NCBI GenBank assembly: GCA_016934535.1
Contig: JAFGSQ010000041.1
Location: forward strand, 1 to 13,430
Source: a candidate division WOR-3 bacterium
GTDB taxonomy: Bacteria; SDB-A
DNA length: 13,430 bases
Direction: 5' to 3'
Below the pieces are notes generated by a model that worked only from the letters and a program-made list of their open reading frames with translations, ran no database searches and was not told the origin of the DNA. Numbering within the stretch: the first letter of the stretch is position 1; each line of letters begins with the position of its first letter. Shown one piece after another: positions 3,291-12,453 of the stretch. Made by a program: the position numbers and the translations under genes.

Positions 3291-3330
3291 GAGCGCGATT
3301 GCATTTCATGCAAAACAAATCATAGATAGT

Positions 3331-3444
3331 TCCAACTCTTCGAGTCGCTTTGCCTAAAGAGTGATCCACGGCGGGCGACCGGCAGACGGAAGTCTCGAGG
3401 GTGCGGCCGGAAACGTCTTCACCTCCCGCGTTCGGAAAGGAGAG
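3331..3444 (+). promoter_or_regulatory. structured leader RNA, candidate Moco/Tuco-type riboswitch
   Basis: In an AT-rich intergenic region, 54 of the 80 bases at 3361-3440 are G or C, and several helices can be drawn. ACTCTT (3335-3340) pairs with AAGAGT (3357-3362). GCGGG (3371-3375) pairs with CCCGC (3425-3429). CCGGC (3379-3383) pairs with GCCGG (3406-3410). AGAC (3384-3387) pairs with GTCT (3392-3395) around a GGAA (GNRA) loop. A 3' hairpin pairs CTC and CCG (3423-3428) with CGG (3433-3435) and GAG (3440-3442), leaving AAAG bulged. That last hairpin contains AAAGGAG, the SD of the following ORF, and competes with the GCGGG/CCCGC helix. The Moco RNA motif and its Tuco variant regulate molybdate/tungstate transport and cofactor genes. 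The position and the 3' hairpin fit this class, but I matched it from memory and by hand-folding, without a covariance search. Confidence 0.45.
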
Positions 3445-3445
3445 A

Positions 3446-3526
3446 ATGTCAATATTTGATTCAATAATACTGCACTTAGTATCCTTGTGGTGCCTTTTTT
3501 CTTTTTTTAGCGGGAAAGAGTCGTGA
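3446..3526 (+). CDS. 26-codon hydrophobic leader ORF coupled to the permease gene
   Basis: An ATG at 3446 is preceded by AAAGGAG (3436-3442), a strong SD at rather short spacing (three bases). It opens a 26-codon frame starting MSIFDSIILHLVSLW and ending FFSGKES. Residues 5-21 form one hydrophobic segment that could span the membrane. The stop TGA (3524-3526) overlaps the GTG start of the permease gene in a GTGA arrangement, the same four-base overlap that joins the permease and ATPase genes. The SD lies inside the last hairpin of the candidate riboswitch, so ligand-controlled folding would control this ORF directly and the permease through coupling. It may be a leader peptide whose only role is coupling, or a tiny extra membrane subunit. 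Chance cannot be excluded for an ORF this short. Confidence 0.5.
   Translation: MSIFDSIILHLVSLWCLFSFFSGKES
3472..3508 (+). terminator. weak terminator-like hairpin with long U-tract in the leader
   Basis: GCACT (3472-3476) can pair with GGTGC (3489-3493, one G-U pair), followed directly by C, six Ts, C and seven Ts (3494-3508). The U-tract is long but the stem is only five base pairs with a 12-base loop. The same bases encode the hydrophobic stretch of the leader ORF. It could attenuate transcription ahead of the permease gene or simply reflect phenylalanine codons. Confidence 0.28.
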
Positions 3527-4344
3527 GCTTAAAGAAAAAAATGAAAAAAGCCGACATCATGACTCTTGTCTTTGTTGTACTTGGATTTTCAATGGCTATT
3601 TTCATCGCCGGACCGATTTTAAAATTATTGTTTTCATCTTCATTGGGAACCTTGCGCACCGCACTTTTGGAAAAATCAGTTTACAGTTCGATACTAATGA
3701 CGGCTTATTCCGCAGCTTTTGCGACAGTTATCGGATTGGTGTTCGGAGTTCCTCTTGCTTACCTGCTGGCGAGGAAGAATTTTATATGCAAAAGAATTGT
3801 CGAGGGACTTATTGACATTCCTGTCGTCATTCCCCATTCAGCGGCGGGAATAGCTCTCCTTTTCGTATTCGGAAGCAGATTCCTTACGGGCAGGTTTTTT
3901 AAATTTTTAGGCGTATCATTTTTCAACAGCATCGCAGGCGTAATTATTGCCATGTTGTTTGTCAGCATACCATTTCTCCTGAATGCCGCGAGGGAAGGTT
4001 TTGAGTCTGTTGACGTCAGACTCGAGAAAGTAGCGAGGACTCTCGGCGCGTCGCCCTGGCAGACATTTTTCAGGATATCTCTTCCGCTGGCGTGGAGAAG
4101 TATTTTGTCTGGCTCGATAATGATGTGGGCGAGAGGAGCAAGCGAGTTCGGTGCGGTACTCGTATTGGCTTATCACGTAAATTTTTTCGGAAATTACGCA
4201 TGCGTGACTCCGATTCTCGTTGCTGACAGATTTAATTCGTTCGGACTTGAATATGCCCGGCCTGTGACGGCGATAGTCATATTGATTTCTCTGCTCTGTT
4301 TTATTCTTTTGCGTGTTCTGGCTCGCCACAGGAAAACCAAGTGA
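3523..4344 (+). CDS. wtpB: tungstate/molybdate ABC transporter permease (WtpB-like)
   Basis: A 273-residue inner-membrane permease of the ModB/CysT/WtpB family. It would form a homodimer that passes tungstate or molybdate delivered by the binding protein encoded two genes downstream. Hydrophobic helices lie near residues 12-37, 54-82, 97-116, 133-153, 195-217 and 247-266. The cytoplasmic EAA loop that contacts the ATPase is at 168-190 (EKVARTLGASPWQTFFRISL), with its conserved G at 175. ARGASEFGAVLVLAY (203-217) and RFNSFGLEYARPV (236-248) match the archaeal WtpB type. The segment between them is a few residues longer than I recall for archaeal proteins. The start is GTG, overlapping the stop of the 26-codon leader ORF (GTGA). 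Only GGGAAAGAG precedes it, so translation may depend on coupling. The gene overlaps the ATPase gene by four bases. Confidence 0.88.
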   Translation: MSLKKKMKKADIMTLVFVVLGFSMAIFIAGPILKLLFSSSLGTLRTALLEKSVYSSILMTAYSAAFATVIGLVFGVPLAYLLARKNFICKRIVEGLIDIPVVIPHSAAGIALLFVFGSRFLTGRFFKFLGVSFFNSIAGVIIAMLFVSIPFLLNAAREGFESVDVRLEKVARTLGASPWQTFFRISLPLAWRSILSGSIMMWARGASEFGAVLVLAYHVNFFGNYACVTPILVADRFNSFGLEYARPVTAIVILISLLCFILLRVLARHRKTK

Positions 4345-5387
4345 TTGAAATAAAAGGATTGAAAATTGACTTGGGCAATTTCGTCCTGAGGGATATTGAT
4401 CTTCAGATAGAAAGAGGGGAATACTTCATTGTCCTCGGGCCGACGGGGGCTGGAAAATCGGTTTTACTCGAAGCGATAGCAGGCCTGTATCCGGTTCTCG
4501 AAGGAAAGATAATTATTGACGGCAGAGACGTAACGGAACTTTCTCCGGAAAAAAGAAAAATCGGTATCGTCTATCAGGATTATTCGCTTTTCCCTCACAT
4601 GTCCGCCGCGGAAAACATAGCCTTCGGACTTAAAGTCAGAAGAACTCCCGGAAAGAAGATAAAAGAAAAGATAAATAATATGGCCGCAATGACTCACATA
4701 AAAGATCTGCTCGATAGAAAGCCGGACACGCTGAGCGGAGGTGAAAAACAAAAAATCGCCTTGGCAAGAGCTCTCGTCACCGATCCGGACATTCTTCTGC
4801 TCGACGAACCTCTGAGCGCCCTGGACCCCAGCACACGCGAAAAAATGAGAGATTTTCTTGAAGAACTTCATGAAGAGCTCAAAGTCACTATTATTCACGT
4901 CACGCACGATTTTGAAGAGGCGGCAGTACTCGGCGACAGAGTGACTGTTATAAACAACGGTGTCATAGTTCAGACTGGCAGACCTGATTATATTATGCGT
5001 CATCCCAAGACGGAGTTTGTAGCTGATTTTGCCCTTTCAAGAAATATTTTCAGGGGAAAAGCGAGATTCAAGCAGGACGGTTTTGCCGAAATTGAAATAA
5101 ATGGCCATAAAATCAACGCAGTGACTGAAAAGACCGGCGATGTCAGAGTTACACTTAGGCCGGAAGAGATTATAATTTCAAGGGAAAAGCTCGTTTCAAC
5201 AGCCCGGAATTGCCTCAAGGGAATCGTCCGGGAGATTTCACACAGAGGCTCATACGCATATGTCACAGTGTCGGCTGGGCAGGATTTTGTGTGCATGGTA
5301 ACAAACACGGCTTTAGAAGAATTGGAGCTTAAAAAAAATAATGAAGCTTGGATAATCTTTAAAGCTTCAGCAGTTCATGTATTTTAA
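4341..5387 (+). CDS. wtpC: tungstate/molybdate ABC transporter ATP-binding protein (WtpC/ModC-like)
   Basis: A 348-residue ATPase that would drive the permease from the cytoplasmic face. All nucleotide-binding motifs are intact: Walker A GPTGAGKS (33-40), the Q-loop in VYQDYSLFPHMS (Q79), the signature LSGGEKQ (131-137), Walker B ILLLDEP (151-157, catalytic E156), the D-loop SALD (159-162) and the switch histidine in VTHDFEEA (H189). From about residue 240 a TOBE-like beta domain follows, including VTLRPEEIIISRE. In ModC-type proteins this region can bind oxyanion and shut transport down when the cell is replete, so self-regulation is possible. Start GTG overlaps the permease stop in a GTGA, giving strong translational coupling. 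The binding-protein gene begins 12 bases downstream. Confidence 0.9.
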   Translation: MIEIKGLKIDLGNFVLRDIDLQIERGEYFIVLGPTGAGKSVLLEAIAGLYPVLEGKIIIDGRDVTELSPEKRKIGIVYQDYSLFPHMSAAENIAFGLKVRRTPGKKIKEKINNMAAMTHIKDLLDRKPDTLSGGEKQKIALARALVTDPDILLLDEPLSALDPSTREKMRDFLEELHEELKVTIIHVTHDFEEAAVLGDRVTVINNGVIVQTGRPDYIMRHPKTEFVADFALSRNIFRGKARFKQDGFAEIEINGHKINAVTEKTGDVRVTLRPEEIIISREKLVSTARNCLKGIVREISHRGSYAYVTVSAGQDFVCMVTNTALEELELKKNNEAWIIFKASAVHVF

Positions 5388-5399
5388 AAAGGAGGTCAA

Positions 5400-6524
5400 G
5401 TGAAAGGGAAAATCGGAAAAGTCGCAACAATCCTGGCAGTGTTTGGATTGACACTTGCTTTTTTTCAGGGGTGCAGTAAACCGCAGCCCAGGGAAGCTGA
5501 AAACACCTGCACTGTTCTGAGTATTTATCACGCCGGTAGCCTTTCAGTACCATTTGAAGGACTAAAAGCTGAATTTTTAAACACTCATTCCGGCAAGGAA
5601 GTTCTCATTGAATCGGGAGGAAGCGCGGGTCTGATAAACAAGATAATATCCGTAATAGAAGCAGGGGAAACACCTCCGGATATTATTGCGTCTGCGGACT
5701 ACAATCTTATTCCCAAAAGGCTTTACGACAAAGGCTACGCCAGCTGGTACATAGCTTTCGCAAGGAATGAACTGGTTCTGTGTTACCGTGACGGAGCTCC
5801 AGGTTCCGAAGATATTATAAATGGAACCCGCACTTGGTACGACGTCCTAAGAAACGATGCTGTCACGTACGGTCACAGCAATCCCGATGACGATCCTTGC
5901 GGTTACAGGTCTTTGATGGTTATTCAGCTGGCAGAATTAGTCTATTTCGAGAATGCTTTCGATTTCGGCCTCGACGCAGATTCTAACGCCAACATGCTTT
6001 ATGATGTTTTGATAGCCGGTGACGATAGTCTTAAGGGAAGAGTCGGAGGTAAAAATGAGATTCTCAGACCCGGAGGGAGTGAGGAGGTTGTCAGATCAAA
6101 ATCAGTCGACCTGATAAGCTCACTGCAGTCCGGAGACCTCGACTATGCTTTTGAATACCGTTCAGTCGCAGTTCAGCACAGCCTAAACTATTTCGATCTT
6201 CATTCCGCTATAAATCTCGGTTCGATAGGCCAAGTCGAAGGTAACGAATTCACGTACGAAGATTTTTACAAAAAAGCCGTTGTAAAAATACTGACCCAGG
6301 TCGACCCGGAAATAGCCTATACCGAAATTGTCGGAGAACCTGTGGTTTACGGAATTTCAATAATCAAGGGCGGAAAAGGTGAATATCTTGCCGTCGAGTT
6401 TATAAAACTTCTTTTGTCTGAAAAAGGTCAGCAGTTGATGGAAGAGAGCGGTCAGCCGTTCCTGTCACCTTTTTTATGCGATCATCCTGAAAACCTGCCC
6501 GAAGATTTGAAAGACCTTTTCTAA
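5400..6524 (+). CDS. wtpA: tungstate/molybdate-binding lipoprotein (WtpA-like)
   Basis: A 374-residue periplasmic substrate-binding protein. The N-terminus has lysines, a hydrophobic core (residues 9-22) and a slightly off-consensus lipobox FQGC with C25 as the likely lipidated residue. The mature part matches the archaeal WtpA/ModA type: SIYHAGSLSVPFEGLKAEFL (41-60), DIIASADYNLIPKRLY (94-109) and SWYIAFARNELVL (115-127). DDDPCGYRSL (163-172) and DYAFEYRSVA (248-257) also match. In archaeal homologues an Asp and a Glu complete octahedral metal coordination. D165 and E252 are the probable equivalents, so this is that class rather than the tetrahedral ModA class. GTG start with AAAGGAGGT at a short four-base spacing. 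It is the last gene of the operon and is followed by a perfect hairpin. Confidence 0.9.
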   Translation: MKGKIGKVATILAVFGLTLAFFQGCSKPQPREAENTCTVLSIYHAGSLSVPFEGLKAEFLNTHSGKEVLIESGGSAGLINKIISVIEAGETPPDIIASADYNLIPKRLYDKGYASWYIAFARNELVLCYRDGAPGSEDIINGTRTWYDVLRNDAVTYGHSNPDDDPCGYRSLMVIQLAELVYFENAFDFGLDADSNANMLYDVLIAGDDSLKGRVGGKNEILRPGGSEEVVRSKSVDLISSLQSGDLDYAFEYRSVAVQHSLNYFDLHSAINLGSIGQVEGNEFTYEDFYKKAVVKILTQVDPEIAYTEIVGEPVVYGISIIKGGKGEYLAVEFIKLLLSEKGQQLMEESGQPFLSPFLCDHPENLPEDLKDLF

Positions 6525-7216: not shown

Positions 7217-9199
7217 TTATTTTTCGGCTATCTGACTCGGGTGTTTAATGAAAAAATCCACCCTCGGTTCAAGATGCTTGAGTTCATGGTTATTAGGGTC
7301 TCTCATAAAAGAATACACCGGTTCGAATATGCGGTCCCAGCTCCAGAAACTGTCGTCCATTCGGAGATACTCCCGGATCATTTCCGTGCCTATAGGTGCA
7401 ATAGGATGCATGAGTACTGTTGCGGTACGGACCATGTGAAATGCGTCTATCAGGGTCTGGATCCGCAGAGAGTCGTCGTTGTTTAATTCCGCTTCCTTCA
7501 TGTTTTTTGACCAGAATTTGTTTATTCCGTGCAGATATGAATCCATAAGGTTTATAACTAAATGTAATTCGCATTTATGCATTCGGTTTTCGTATTCGAT
7601 AATTAATGAATTGGCATCTTCCATAACCTGAGCGCTCACATCACCGACGGGTATTTTACCGGAACTGTATTTCTGCGCGCCGTAAAAGCAAGAACGGGCG
7701 GCTCTGTTGAAAACGTTCGAAAGAAGATTGCCTTCTTTTAAAACGGGATCGCCTGCCGATTCGTTGGCGGCGGGATTGAGAGGTTTCGGTTTGAAGCCCA
7801 CGCTTCTCAAACCGAGACCCAGGCTCAGAAAGTGTGCTCTGAGCTGTTCAGGCGTGTAATAATTGAGCAGGTCTTCGGCGCTTGGGGGTTTTACGGCTCC
7901 GCTGCTGCTTGCTTTCTTGTCCAGAAACAGAATGTGGCTGTTGGCGATAATGTCAGGCATTTGCAATTGACCTTCATTGGGTGAAAGCTCGGGTTTTTTG
8001 CCCTGCATCCCTAAAAATATTGCCGTTTCGACCGGGCCGTAGAAATAGACATTGTCCTCTCCTATGAACTGATACACTTTTGAATCTTTTGAGCACCACC
8101 AGTATTTCCAAAATTCTTTATCCTTGTTTTGATTTTCGAGGTGGGTCATTGTAAACGAAATAGGAGCCCACAGGGATTCAGGCCACACCCAGACGGTCAG
8201 ACCTTCGAGCCCCTCGATAATAGGCGCGGGGACTCCCCATTCTGTGTTCCCTGTAATTCTGAAAGGAACAAGGGTTTTGCCGGTTCTAAAACGTATCGAA
8301 TGATCCCTGAGTACCGAACAGGCTTTTTCCCTTTTGTCCAATTTTTTAAAGACAATTCGTACAGGAAATTTGTCCCCGTCGTCTATCAGGTTATGTTCCG
8401 GCAGTTTATCCAAAATCGGGTCAAGTTTTTCCTTCTGGTCGCGCTTGATGTAAATTATTGGCGGTTCCAGAAACTCTTTGATGCTTTTGTCTACAAAAGG
8501 CCGCGCGTTAGGCCGTTCTTTGATACTATCGGTCCATTTTTCCAGCAAATCTTTGAACGCGGCAAGATCAAAATACCAGTTTTCAACGCCTTTCATTTCA
8601 GGCTTTTTACCAGAGAGAGTACTTTTCGGATCGATAAGATCAGAGGGCATGTACTGGTGGCCTATAGAGCATTCATCGGCGTAGGCCTTTTCGGATGAAC
8701 AACCTTCAATGGGACATTTGCCAATTACCTGCCTGCCGTTCAGGAAAACTCCGAACTCGGTGTCGAAGAATTGTGAGGTCGTCATTCTGATAAGATAACC
8801 GTTTGAATAAAGGGTGTTTATTATATAATCCGAAAAAATTTTGTGATTGGCGCCGGATTTTCCGAAACTTGAAGCGGCGTAAAGATTCAGGCTAATGTTG
8901 TATTTTTCCAGAACGGTTTTTTGCTTTTCGTGATTTGATTTCACGAAATCTTCTATAGTGCCCCGGAATTTACCTTCAGAGGACAGGCGTCTGAAGTCTT
9001 CCAGAATCGGCGAACCATAGCAATCGGTTCCCGAAACAAAGATGACGTTATTTTTACCGATTCTGTCCCTGAGGAATCTGGCGTAACAGTCGGCGTGGAC
9101 AAAAACTCCACCGATATGACCAAGGTGGAGTTCCTTGTTGCCGTAAGGCATTCCGGCGGTTATGACCGCCCGTTTTGGGAATTCAGGCCTTTCTTTCAA
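7217..9199 (-). CDS. metG: divergent methionyl-tRNA synthetase homologue
   Basis: A 660-residue class I aminoacyl-tRNA synthetase. The HIGH motif is HLGH (25-28) after TAGMPYGN. GTDCYGSPI (58-66) replaces the usual 'DDxHGTP' box, and a zinc knob has C162, C167, C177 and H181. The catalytic domain resumes at EWGVPAP (320-326) after a roughly 70-residue insertion (about 247-318). KMSKS appears as KKASSS (428-433), lacking the second lysine. A helical anticodon-binding domain spans about 480-615, and there is no EMAP/Trbp111 tail. By eye, several methionine-pocket positions differ from E. coli MetRS: the WLDAP region reads WVWPE, and the FHxxFWPAM helix reads FYGPVETAI. The APW tryptophan of anticodon recognition is not at its usual place. 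Start TTG with GGAAAG eight bases upstream. It is either the cell's own divergent MetRS or a paralogue with altered specificity. Confidence 0.78.
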   Translation of the reverse strand: MKERPEFPKRAVITAGMPYGNKELHLGHIGGVFVHADCYARFLRDRIGKNNVIFVSGTDCYGSPILEDFRRLSSEGKFRGTIEDFVKSNHEKQKTVLEKYNISLNLYAASSFGKSGANHKIFSDYIINTLYSNGYLIRMTTSQFFDTEFGVFLNGRQVIGKCPIEGCSSEKAYADECSIGHQYMPSDLIDPKSTLSGKKPEMKGVENWYFDLAAFKDLLEKWTDSIKERPNARPFVDKSIKEFLEPPIIYIKRDQKEKLDPILDKLPEHNLIDDGDKFPVRIVFKKLDKREKACSVLRDHSIRFRTGKTLVPFRITGNTEWGVPAPIIEGLEGLTVWVWPESLWAPISFTMTHLENQNKDKEFWKYWWCSKDSKVYQFIGEDNVYFYGPVETAIFLGMQGKKPELSPNEGQLQMPDIIANSHILFLDKKASSSGAVKPPSAEDLLNYYTPEQLRAHFLSLGLGLRSVGFKPKPLNPAANESAGDPVLKEGNLLSNVFNRAARSCFYGAQKYSSGKIPVGDVSAQVMEDANSLIIEYENRMHKCELHLVINLMDSYLHGINKFWSKNMKEAELNNDDSLRIQTLIDAFHMVRTATVLMHPIAPIGTEMIREYLRMDDSFWSWDRIFEPVYSFMRDPNNHELKHLEPRVDFFIKHPSQIAEK

Positions 9200-12099: not shown

Positions 12100-12453
12100 C
12101 TAATCAGGTATATATTTCAAAAAATTCCCGTCAATTATAAGCAGTTTAACGCCGTTTTTTGTTGTAGAACGATGAGAGCTGACATCATCAGAAACTATAT
12201 ACGACATGCCTTTGGTAAGAGTAAATTCTGTACCATCCGATTGCACGCTGATAAAATTACCTTCCAGGCAATGTACTATGTGACCTTTTTTGCACCAATG
12301 ATCGGCGAGAAAACCTGGTAAATATTCGACAGTTCTAACCCTAAGACCTTCAAACTGAAGGGTTTGCCAGTACCCGGTCCCATTTTCACCCAAATGTTCT
12401 GTTTTTGGAATTTTTGACCAGTCAATGACTTGAAAAGGAATGTTTTTTCCCAT
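12100..12453 (-). CDS. DHCW-motif cupin-fold protein
   Basis: A 117-residue single-domain cupin. DHWCKKGHIVHCLEG (51-65) is the family's signature, holding H52, C54, H58, H61 and E64 as candidate metal ligands. The second cupin motif is reduced to HRSTT (H94). Length and layout match the small 'DHCW motif' cupins, whose function is not established. The ATG follows GAGGAGG, which itself overlaps the TGA stop of the upstream acetyltransferase (TGAGGAGG), so translation is likely coupled. It ends 112 bases before the PD40 gene. Confidence 0.8.
   Translation of the reverse strand: MGKNIPFQVIDWSKIPKTEHLGENGTGYWQTLQFEGLRVRTVEYLPGFLADHWCKKGHIVHCLEGNFISVQSDGTEFTLTKGMSYIVSDDVSSHRSTTKNGVKLLIIDGNFLKYIPD

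Follow-up and report, generated by a model that had tools for sequence, protein, structure and literature searches.

The gene at positions 7217-9199 on the minus strand of the window (the whole 13,430-nucleotide stretch of DNA that was analyzed) very probably encodes a glutaminyl-tRNA synthetase (GlnRS) that, judging from its sequence, arose from methionyl-tRNA synthetase (MetRS), with an origin separate from that of the known class Ib GlnRS. It likewise seems likely that GlnRS evolved twice, and that the MetRS-derived, class Ia form is widespread among bacteria of the gut and rumen, being in some lineages the sole source of Gln-tRNA-Gln. Glutamine is the proposed substrate because relatives of the gene have T-box leaders with glutamine codons, because the family replaces GlnRS, because certain genomes that carry it have no other visible route to Gln-tRNA-Gln, because it shares an operon with gltX, and because residues of the former methionine pocket have become polar. 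Most amino acids are served by a single synthetase lineage across life, lysine with its class I and class II LysRS being the textbook exception. No MetRS-derived GlnRS was reported in the open-access papers that we searched.

The open reading frame is genuine, with 660 codons from a TTG start and a stop codon in the same frame just upstream. Profile searches with MetRS models (TIGR00398, NF001100, PF09334) gave two matching blocks, with scores far under the curated equivalog cut-offs (219.7 versus 587 bits and 178.3 versus 336.35 bits). The AlphaFold2 model of the protein (mean pLDDT 90.8) nonetheless has the MetRS fold; its closest fold match is E. coli MetRS, with a Z of 35.3 and an rmsd of 3.1 across 524 residues. 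An insert of ~65 residues (about 247-312; positions 8264-8461), which went unnoticed in the original prediction, is missing from MetRS, as judged from a gap against Pyrococcus MetRS. It was modeled, with modest confidence (mean pLDDT 75.6), as a ferredoxin-like beta-alpha-beta-beta-alpha-beta domain; its fold matches were generic, the best (Z 8.4) being to a domain of DNA polymerase II, and it had no Pfam match.

Residues were compared in a multiple alignment of 30 family members with 21 canonical MetRS, E. coli MetRS included (whose numbering is used for MetRS residues), and in a second, profile alignment to Pyrococcus MetRS; conservation was counted over 66 aligned family loci, some of which are repeats of one genome. 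As originally predicted, the HIGH-type ATP motif and the zinc knob are kept. The former reads LHLGH in the window protein, and its HLGH (residues 25-28; positions 9116-9127) is family-invariant except for residue 26 (F/L) and one Ala at 27. The latter has the pattern C162-X4-C167-X9-C177-X3-H181 (positions 8657-8716), with all four ligands present in 66/66 loci. Tyr19, the catalytic Asp59 and Trp339 are, like the HIGH motif, invariant or nearly so.

The methionine pocket is a different matter. The original prediction had matched the WLDAP motif to WVWPE (residues 337-341), which is off by two residues: both alignments give WPESL (339-343) as the true counterpart, within a WPESLWAP segment (339-346; positions 8162-8185) that corresponds to WLDAPIGY of MetRS and is found in 66/66 loci. 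Careful alignment thus restores the pocket Trp (W253, retained as W339) and the acid following it (E341), while the other key residues stay changed. A256 is replaced by Ser342, P257 by Leu343 and Y260 by Pro346, and in the DNxYFYxxxE region (383-391; positions 8027-8053) Tyr387 stands for H301 and Glu/Gln391 for W305 (E in 56 loci, Q in 10). All 30 family members have Y, E/Q, P and S in place of H301, W305, Y260 and A256. Among the 21 canonical MetRS, A256, Y260 and H301 are conserved and only W305 varies, being Phe in four. The changes of P257 to Leu343 and I297 to Asn383 are seen in canonical MetRS too. What sets every family member apart from the 21 canonical MetRS is Gly for R233, Ser for A256, Pro for Y260 and Tyr for H301, together with Glu/Gln for W305 (Trp or Phe in canonical MetRS) and the loss of W461; Met for L13 does so with one exception. 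The R233 change is that of ITG (315-317; positions 8249-8257), where MetRS has ISR or ITR: as predicted, the third residue is Gly in 30/30 family members versus Arg in 21/21 canonical MetRS.

The other motifs named in the original prediction (the KASSS loop, ITG, Tyr387, Glu391 and, in the anticodon domain, INKFWSKN at 559-566) are all present where it placed them. KASSS (429-433; positions 7901-7915), the counterpart of KMSKS, is family-invariant apart from one Gly at 431, but the missing second lysine is not distinctive of the family: it is Thr in 10 of the 21 canonical MetRS, including the window organism's own metG (KVSTS). The anticodon site had also been called remodeled. Its Trp, W461, is indeed lost throughout the family, whereas the anticodon-binding N391 and R395 look kept, given a one-residue gap, as N498 and R502 of an NRxxR motif (498-502; positions 7694-7708) found in 64/66 loci. 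K429, A430, S432, S433, G317, P340-P346 and Y387 are invariant over the 66 loci, and motif changes kept on this scale are not sequencing noise. Overall, the family resembles class Ia MetRS in its near full-length fold, zinc knob, HIGH motif, catalytic Asp and helical anticodon domain, and differs from it in the methionine pocket, R233, the KMSKS loop, W461, the insert, the sub-cut-off scores and the presence of a canonical metG alongside.

That canonical metG is complete in the window genome (G000:C21, 598.8 bits) and was also found in 22 of the 24 paralogue genomes checked, which rules out the alternative raised at the outset, that the protein is the organism's sole MetRS or a lineage-wide divergent one. 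Two 0.9-Mb Clostridia assemblies (L114 in G068 and L118 in G310) carry the paralogue without a canonical metG having been found; this absence is probably due to incompleteness, yet three other assemblies of the same size carry metG. The family has no name in any curated protein-family library searched, and the NCBI annotation of copies in a plasmid collection goes no further than 'class I tRNA ligase family protein'. One of the two other genomes of the window's genus has a relative at 86% identity; relatives at 48-68% occur in Ruminococcus (WP_013483668.1 being the copy of Ruminococcus albus 7), Lachnospiraceae, Monoglobus, Collinsella and other Clostridia. In an even draw of species, the paralogue was present in 51 of 392 Clostridia (~13%). 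In a tree built by a quick method and containing long branches, the family occupies one side, with full support, and canonical MetRS lie apart from it.

Viral carriage was rejected: IMG/VR held no relatives, and phage matches were partial, at ~30% identity, the annotated ones being MetRS. Sampled matches on E. coli plasmids were mostly annotated metG (e.g., NZ_CP031136.1:20842-21459), on replicons of ~110 kb that resemble phage-plasmids (cf. Escherichia phage Cyrano). A private tRNA was likewise discounted, there being no tRNA gene adjoining the synthetase either in the window or in the 11 related loci examined. So was an odd tRNA in the window genome, where the tRNAs found have ordinary anticodons.

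Each T-box leader contains a codon matching the tRNA that it senses. Thirteen lie beside family genes, 11 of them in the family gene's orientation and two facing divergent genes. With the specifier read at the position set by the Rfam alignment, the 11 same-orientation leaders, two of which are near-identical (leaving ~10 distinct sequences), all specify glutamine (CAA in seven, CAG in four). The two others face thrS (a gene cluster, c13, assigned by eye to threonyl-tRNA synthetase) and have the specifier ACC, for threonine, which provides a built-in control on the reading register. In a genome-wide survey of T-boxes upstream of tRNA-ligase genes, the codon always matched the amino acid of the ligase (PMC2494555). 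Glutamine-specific regulation is thus seen in relatives of the window gene; an Rfam scan of the window itself gave no T-box at gathering score.

The recurrent neighbor of the family is gltX, which is adjacent or one gene away in 19/59 loci (~18 distinct). In most of these it lies upstream, with many gaps of 25-72 bp; in L145 it lies downstream. Two kinds of GluRS occur among the neighboring gltX genes (that of L120 versus the others), and the operon gltX is the sole one found in each such genome checked. The arrangement fits a co-supply of Glu- and Gln-tRNA. No neighbor cluster besides gltX occurred in more than nine loci, and no recurrent one was possibly a cupin or lysine monooxygenase. The window has a DHCW cupin gene (positions 12100-12453), and none of its scanned genes was identified as a monooxygenase. 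Elsewhere in the window, a Moco (molybdenum/tungsten) riboswitch (positions 3326-3458, 65.5 bits) lies directly 5' of a wtpB-wtpC-wtpA tungstate transporter operon (positions 3523-6524).

Gene distribution points the same way as the T-boxes. In Clostridia, GlnRS was present in 5/55 genomes with the paralogue versus 34/47 without it (Fisher p = 2.8e-11, relatedness ignored), so that only five genomes had both; within the window's family, the paralogue occurs in G000 and G001, which lack GlnRS, and GlnRS in G002 and G003, which lack the paralogue. Ten paralogue genomes lack GatB, all of them having AsnRS, and eight (G068, G103, G154, G181, G195, G220, G370 and G393) have neither GatB nor GlnRS and hence no other visible route to Gln-tRNA-Gln; G370 is a single 3.12-Mb contig. 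Among genomes lacking both GatB and the paralogue, 18/19 have GlnRS. A published division of bacteria into five groups by GluRS, GlnRS and GatCAB contains no group lacking both routes (PMC3927822).

The direct route is sometimes accompanied by another, since GatB occurs in 44/54 paralogue-bearing Clostridia, many of which also have AsnRS. Of the paralogue-free Clostridia checked, 8/11 have GlnRS, GatB and AsnRS together. That the GatB of paralogue genomes serves only asparagine is possible for about nine of them, which lack AsnRS, and is unsupported for most. In four loci (G060:C128, G203:C1, G208:C112 and G328:C6), GatB lies beside or near a second Asp/AsnRS-type synthetase (~225-250 bits to asnS), which suggests that GatCAB may serve Asn-tRNA there. 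The window genome does have another visible route: an archaeal-type gatE with an adjoining gatD (L249:951-4288 on G000:C67; TIGR00134, 375 bits; TIGR02153, 497 bits). The direct glutamine route may therefore be redundant in the window organism, or at least not the sole one; each of the four genomes in its family has gatE, and two of them have GlnRS as well. No bacterial gltX was found in G000, either through an assembly gap or because its GluRS is divergent; its genus-mate G001 has one. Given this, and that most of the genomes are drafts, single absences carry little weight.

In the mechanism that we propose, the protein has kept the catalytic fold of MetRS along with its zinc knob and helical anticodon domain, as sequence and model both show, and the amino acid would be activated by ATP as the adenylate and then moved to tRNA; adenylate formation and transfer are suggested by the conservation of Asp59, Tyr19 and the HIGH motif. 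Ser342, Leu343, Pro346, Tyr387 and Glu/Gln391 would form a remodeled pocket that binds the side-chain amide of glutamine instead of a thioether, with a predicted polar lining of Tyr387, Glu/Gln391, Asn383 and Ser342. Glutamine is similar to methionine in length, and its amide would sit at about the same distance as the methionine sulfur. A precedent is the related MetRS-like protein PyrN, which has come to activate glutamate (PMC8664883), so that the MetRS pocket is able to change in such a direction. The anticodon domain, without W461, would recognize tRNA-Gln anticodons. In many Clostridia, the gene is, as its sequence shows, turned on by a T-box leader sensing uncharged tRNA-Gln, and gene presence and absence show the paralogue in place of canonical GlnRS and, in some genomes, of the GluRS + GatCAB route too. 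The reduced KMSKS loop and the loss of R233 count against the enzyme being a GlnRS. Such an enzyme would resemble class Ib GlnRS (glnS, TIGR00440) in its product, Gln-tRNA-Gln, in the glutamine-codon T-box and in alternating with it across genomes, but belongs to another subclass with another anticodon domain, and similarity is undetectable beyond the HIGH stretch: the window protein had no TIGR00440 match, and BLASTP against class Ib GlnRS gave an E of 0.32 over 26 residues.

The main rival still standing, which we consider unlikely, is a GluRS of MetRS origin specific for tRNA-Gln, which like GluRS2 would mischarge this tRNA with glutamate for amidation by GatCAB (GatDE in the window's genus). 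A role on tRNA-Gln is compatible with the glutamine T-boxes and the gltX operon, most paralogue-bearing Clostridia have GatB, the window genome has GatDE, and the related PyrN activates glutamate. However, Glu-tRNA-Gln would be a dead end in the eight paralogue genomes without GatB and GlnRS, and the pocket is identical family-wide. Moreover, the paralogue substitutes for GlnRS instead of tracking GatB, and the acidic residue 391 of most members appears ill-suited to a glutamate carboxylate. The GluRS2 + GatCAB or GatDE systems serve the same codons and share the gltX neighbor, but the family is not a GluRS homologue and is present without GatB in ten genomes.

Of the three options in the original prediction, another amino acid and another tRNA are both supported, and can be named as glutamine and tRNA-Gln; the third, a role outside translation, here as a tRNA-independent ligase or metabolic enzyme under glutamine-supply control (cf. 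the cupin-linked hydrazine synthetases and the CysRS paralogue MshC), is disfavored and very improbable. T-boxes do also regulate amino-acid enzymes and transporters, and there is the cupin gene in the window. Other MetRS paralogues have taken such a path (PMC2922099, PMC8664883): the cupin-linked, MetRS-like hydrazine synthetases (PyrN, the RHS1 partner and the group of Aravind 2010), which share with the family a MetRS ancestry and an altered pocket, work with N6-hydroxy-lysine and a cupin rather than with tRNA (PMC8664883), in a strict neighborhood with cupin and lysine N6-monooxygenase genes (PMC2922099). But the present family has a complete anticodon domain with a conserved NRxxR, has gltX and no cupin/lysine monooxygenase cluster as its recurrent neighbor, is retained in 0.9-Mb genomes and alternates with GlnRS. 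Gene context and the tree, where the hydrazine synthetases form a separate branch, rule out that specific identity. On the conjugative Pantoea ananatis plasmid pOC5aB, a SidA monooxygenase gene is clustered with cupin and MetRS-like genes (L030), in the manner of the hydrazine synthetases; unlike the family, the MetRS-like protein of this cluster does not keep the anticodon-site residues. Still less probable is a second MetRS, serving for instance inhibitor resistance or a variant tRNA-Met. MetRS is the top fold and family match, yet the scores are far under MetRS cut-offs, H301, W305, Y260 and A256 are all replaced family-wide, and the T-boxes specify glutamine and none methionine. We give least credence of all to a paralogue that has lost catalysis and serves GluRS as a regulator or tRNA chaperone: this reading would accommodate the reduced KMSKS loop, the lost R233 and the operon with gltX, but not the conservation of Asp59, Tyr19, Trp339 and HIGH, and it leaves genomes without GlnRS and GatB unexplained; the second KMSKS lysine, besides, is often missing from canonical MetRS.

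If the family is indeed a MetRS-derived GlnRS, it would represent a rare natural switch of both amino acid and tRNA by a synthetase, and a direct route to Gln-tRNA-Gln that is absent from the list of known ones. It would call for a corrected annotation in the many gut species that have the gene, and would supply a glutamine enzyme on a MetRS scaffold, of use in genetic-code engineering. It would also account for bacteria that seemingly have no means to charge tRNA-Gln.
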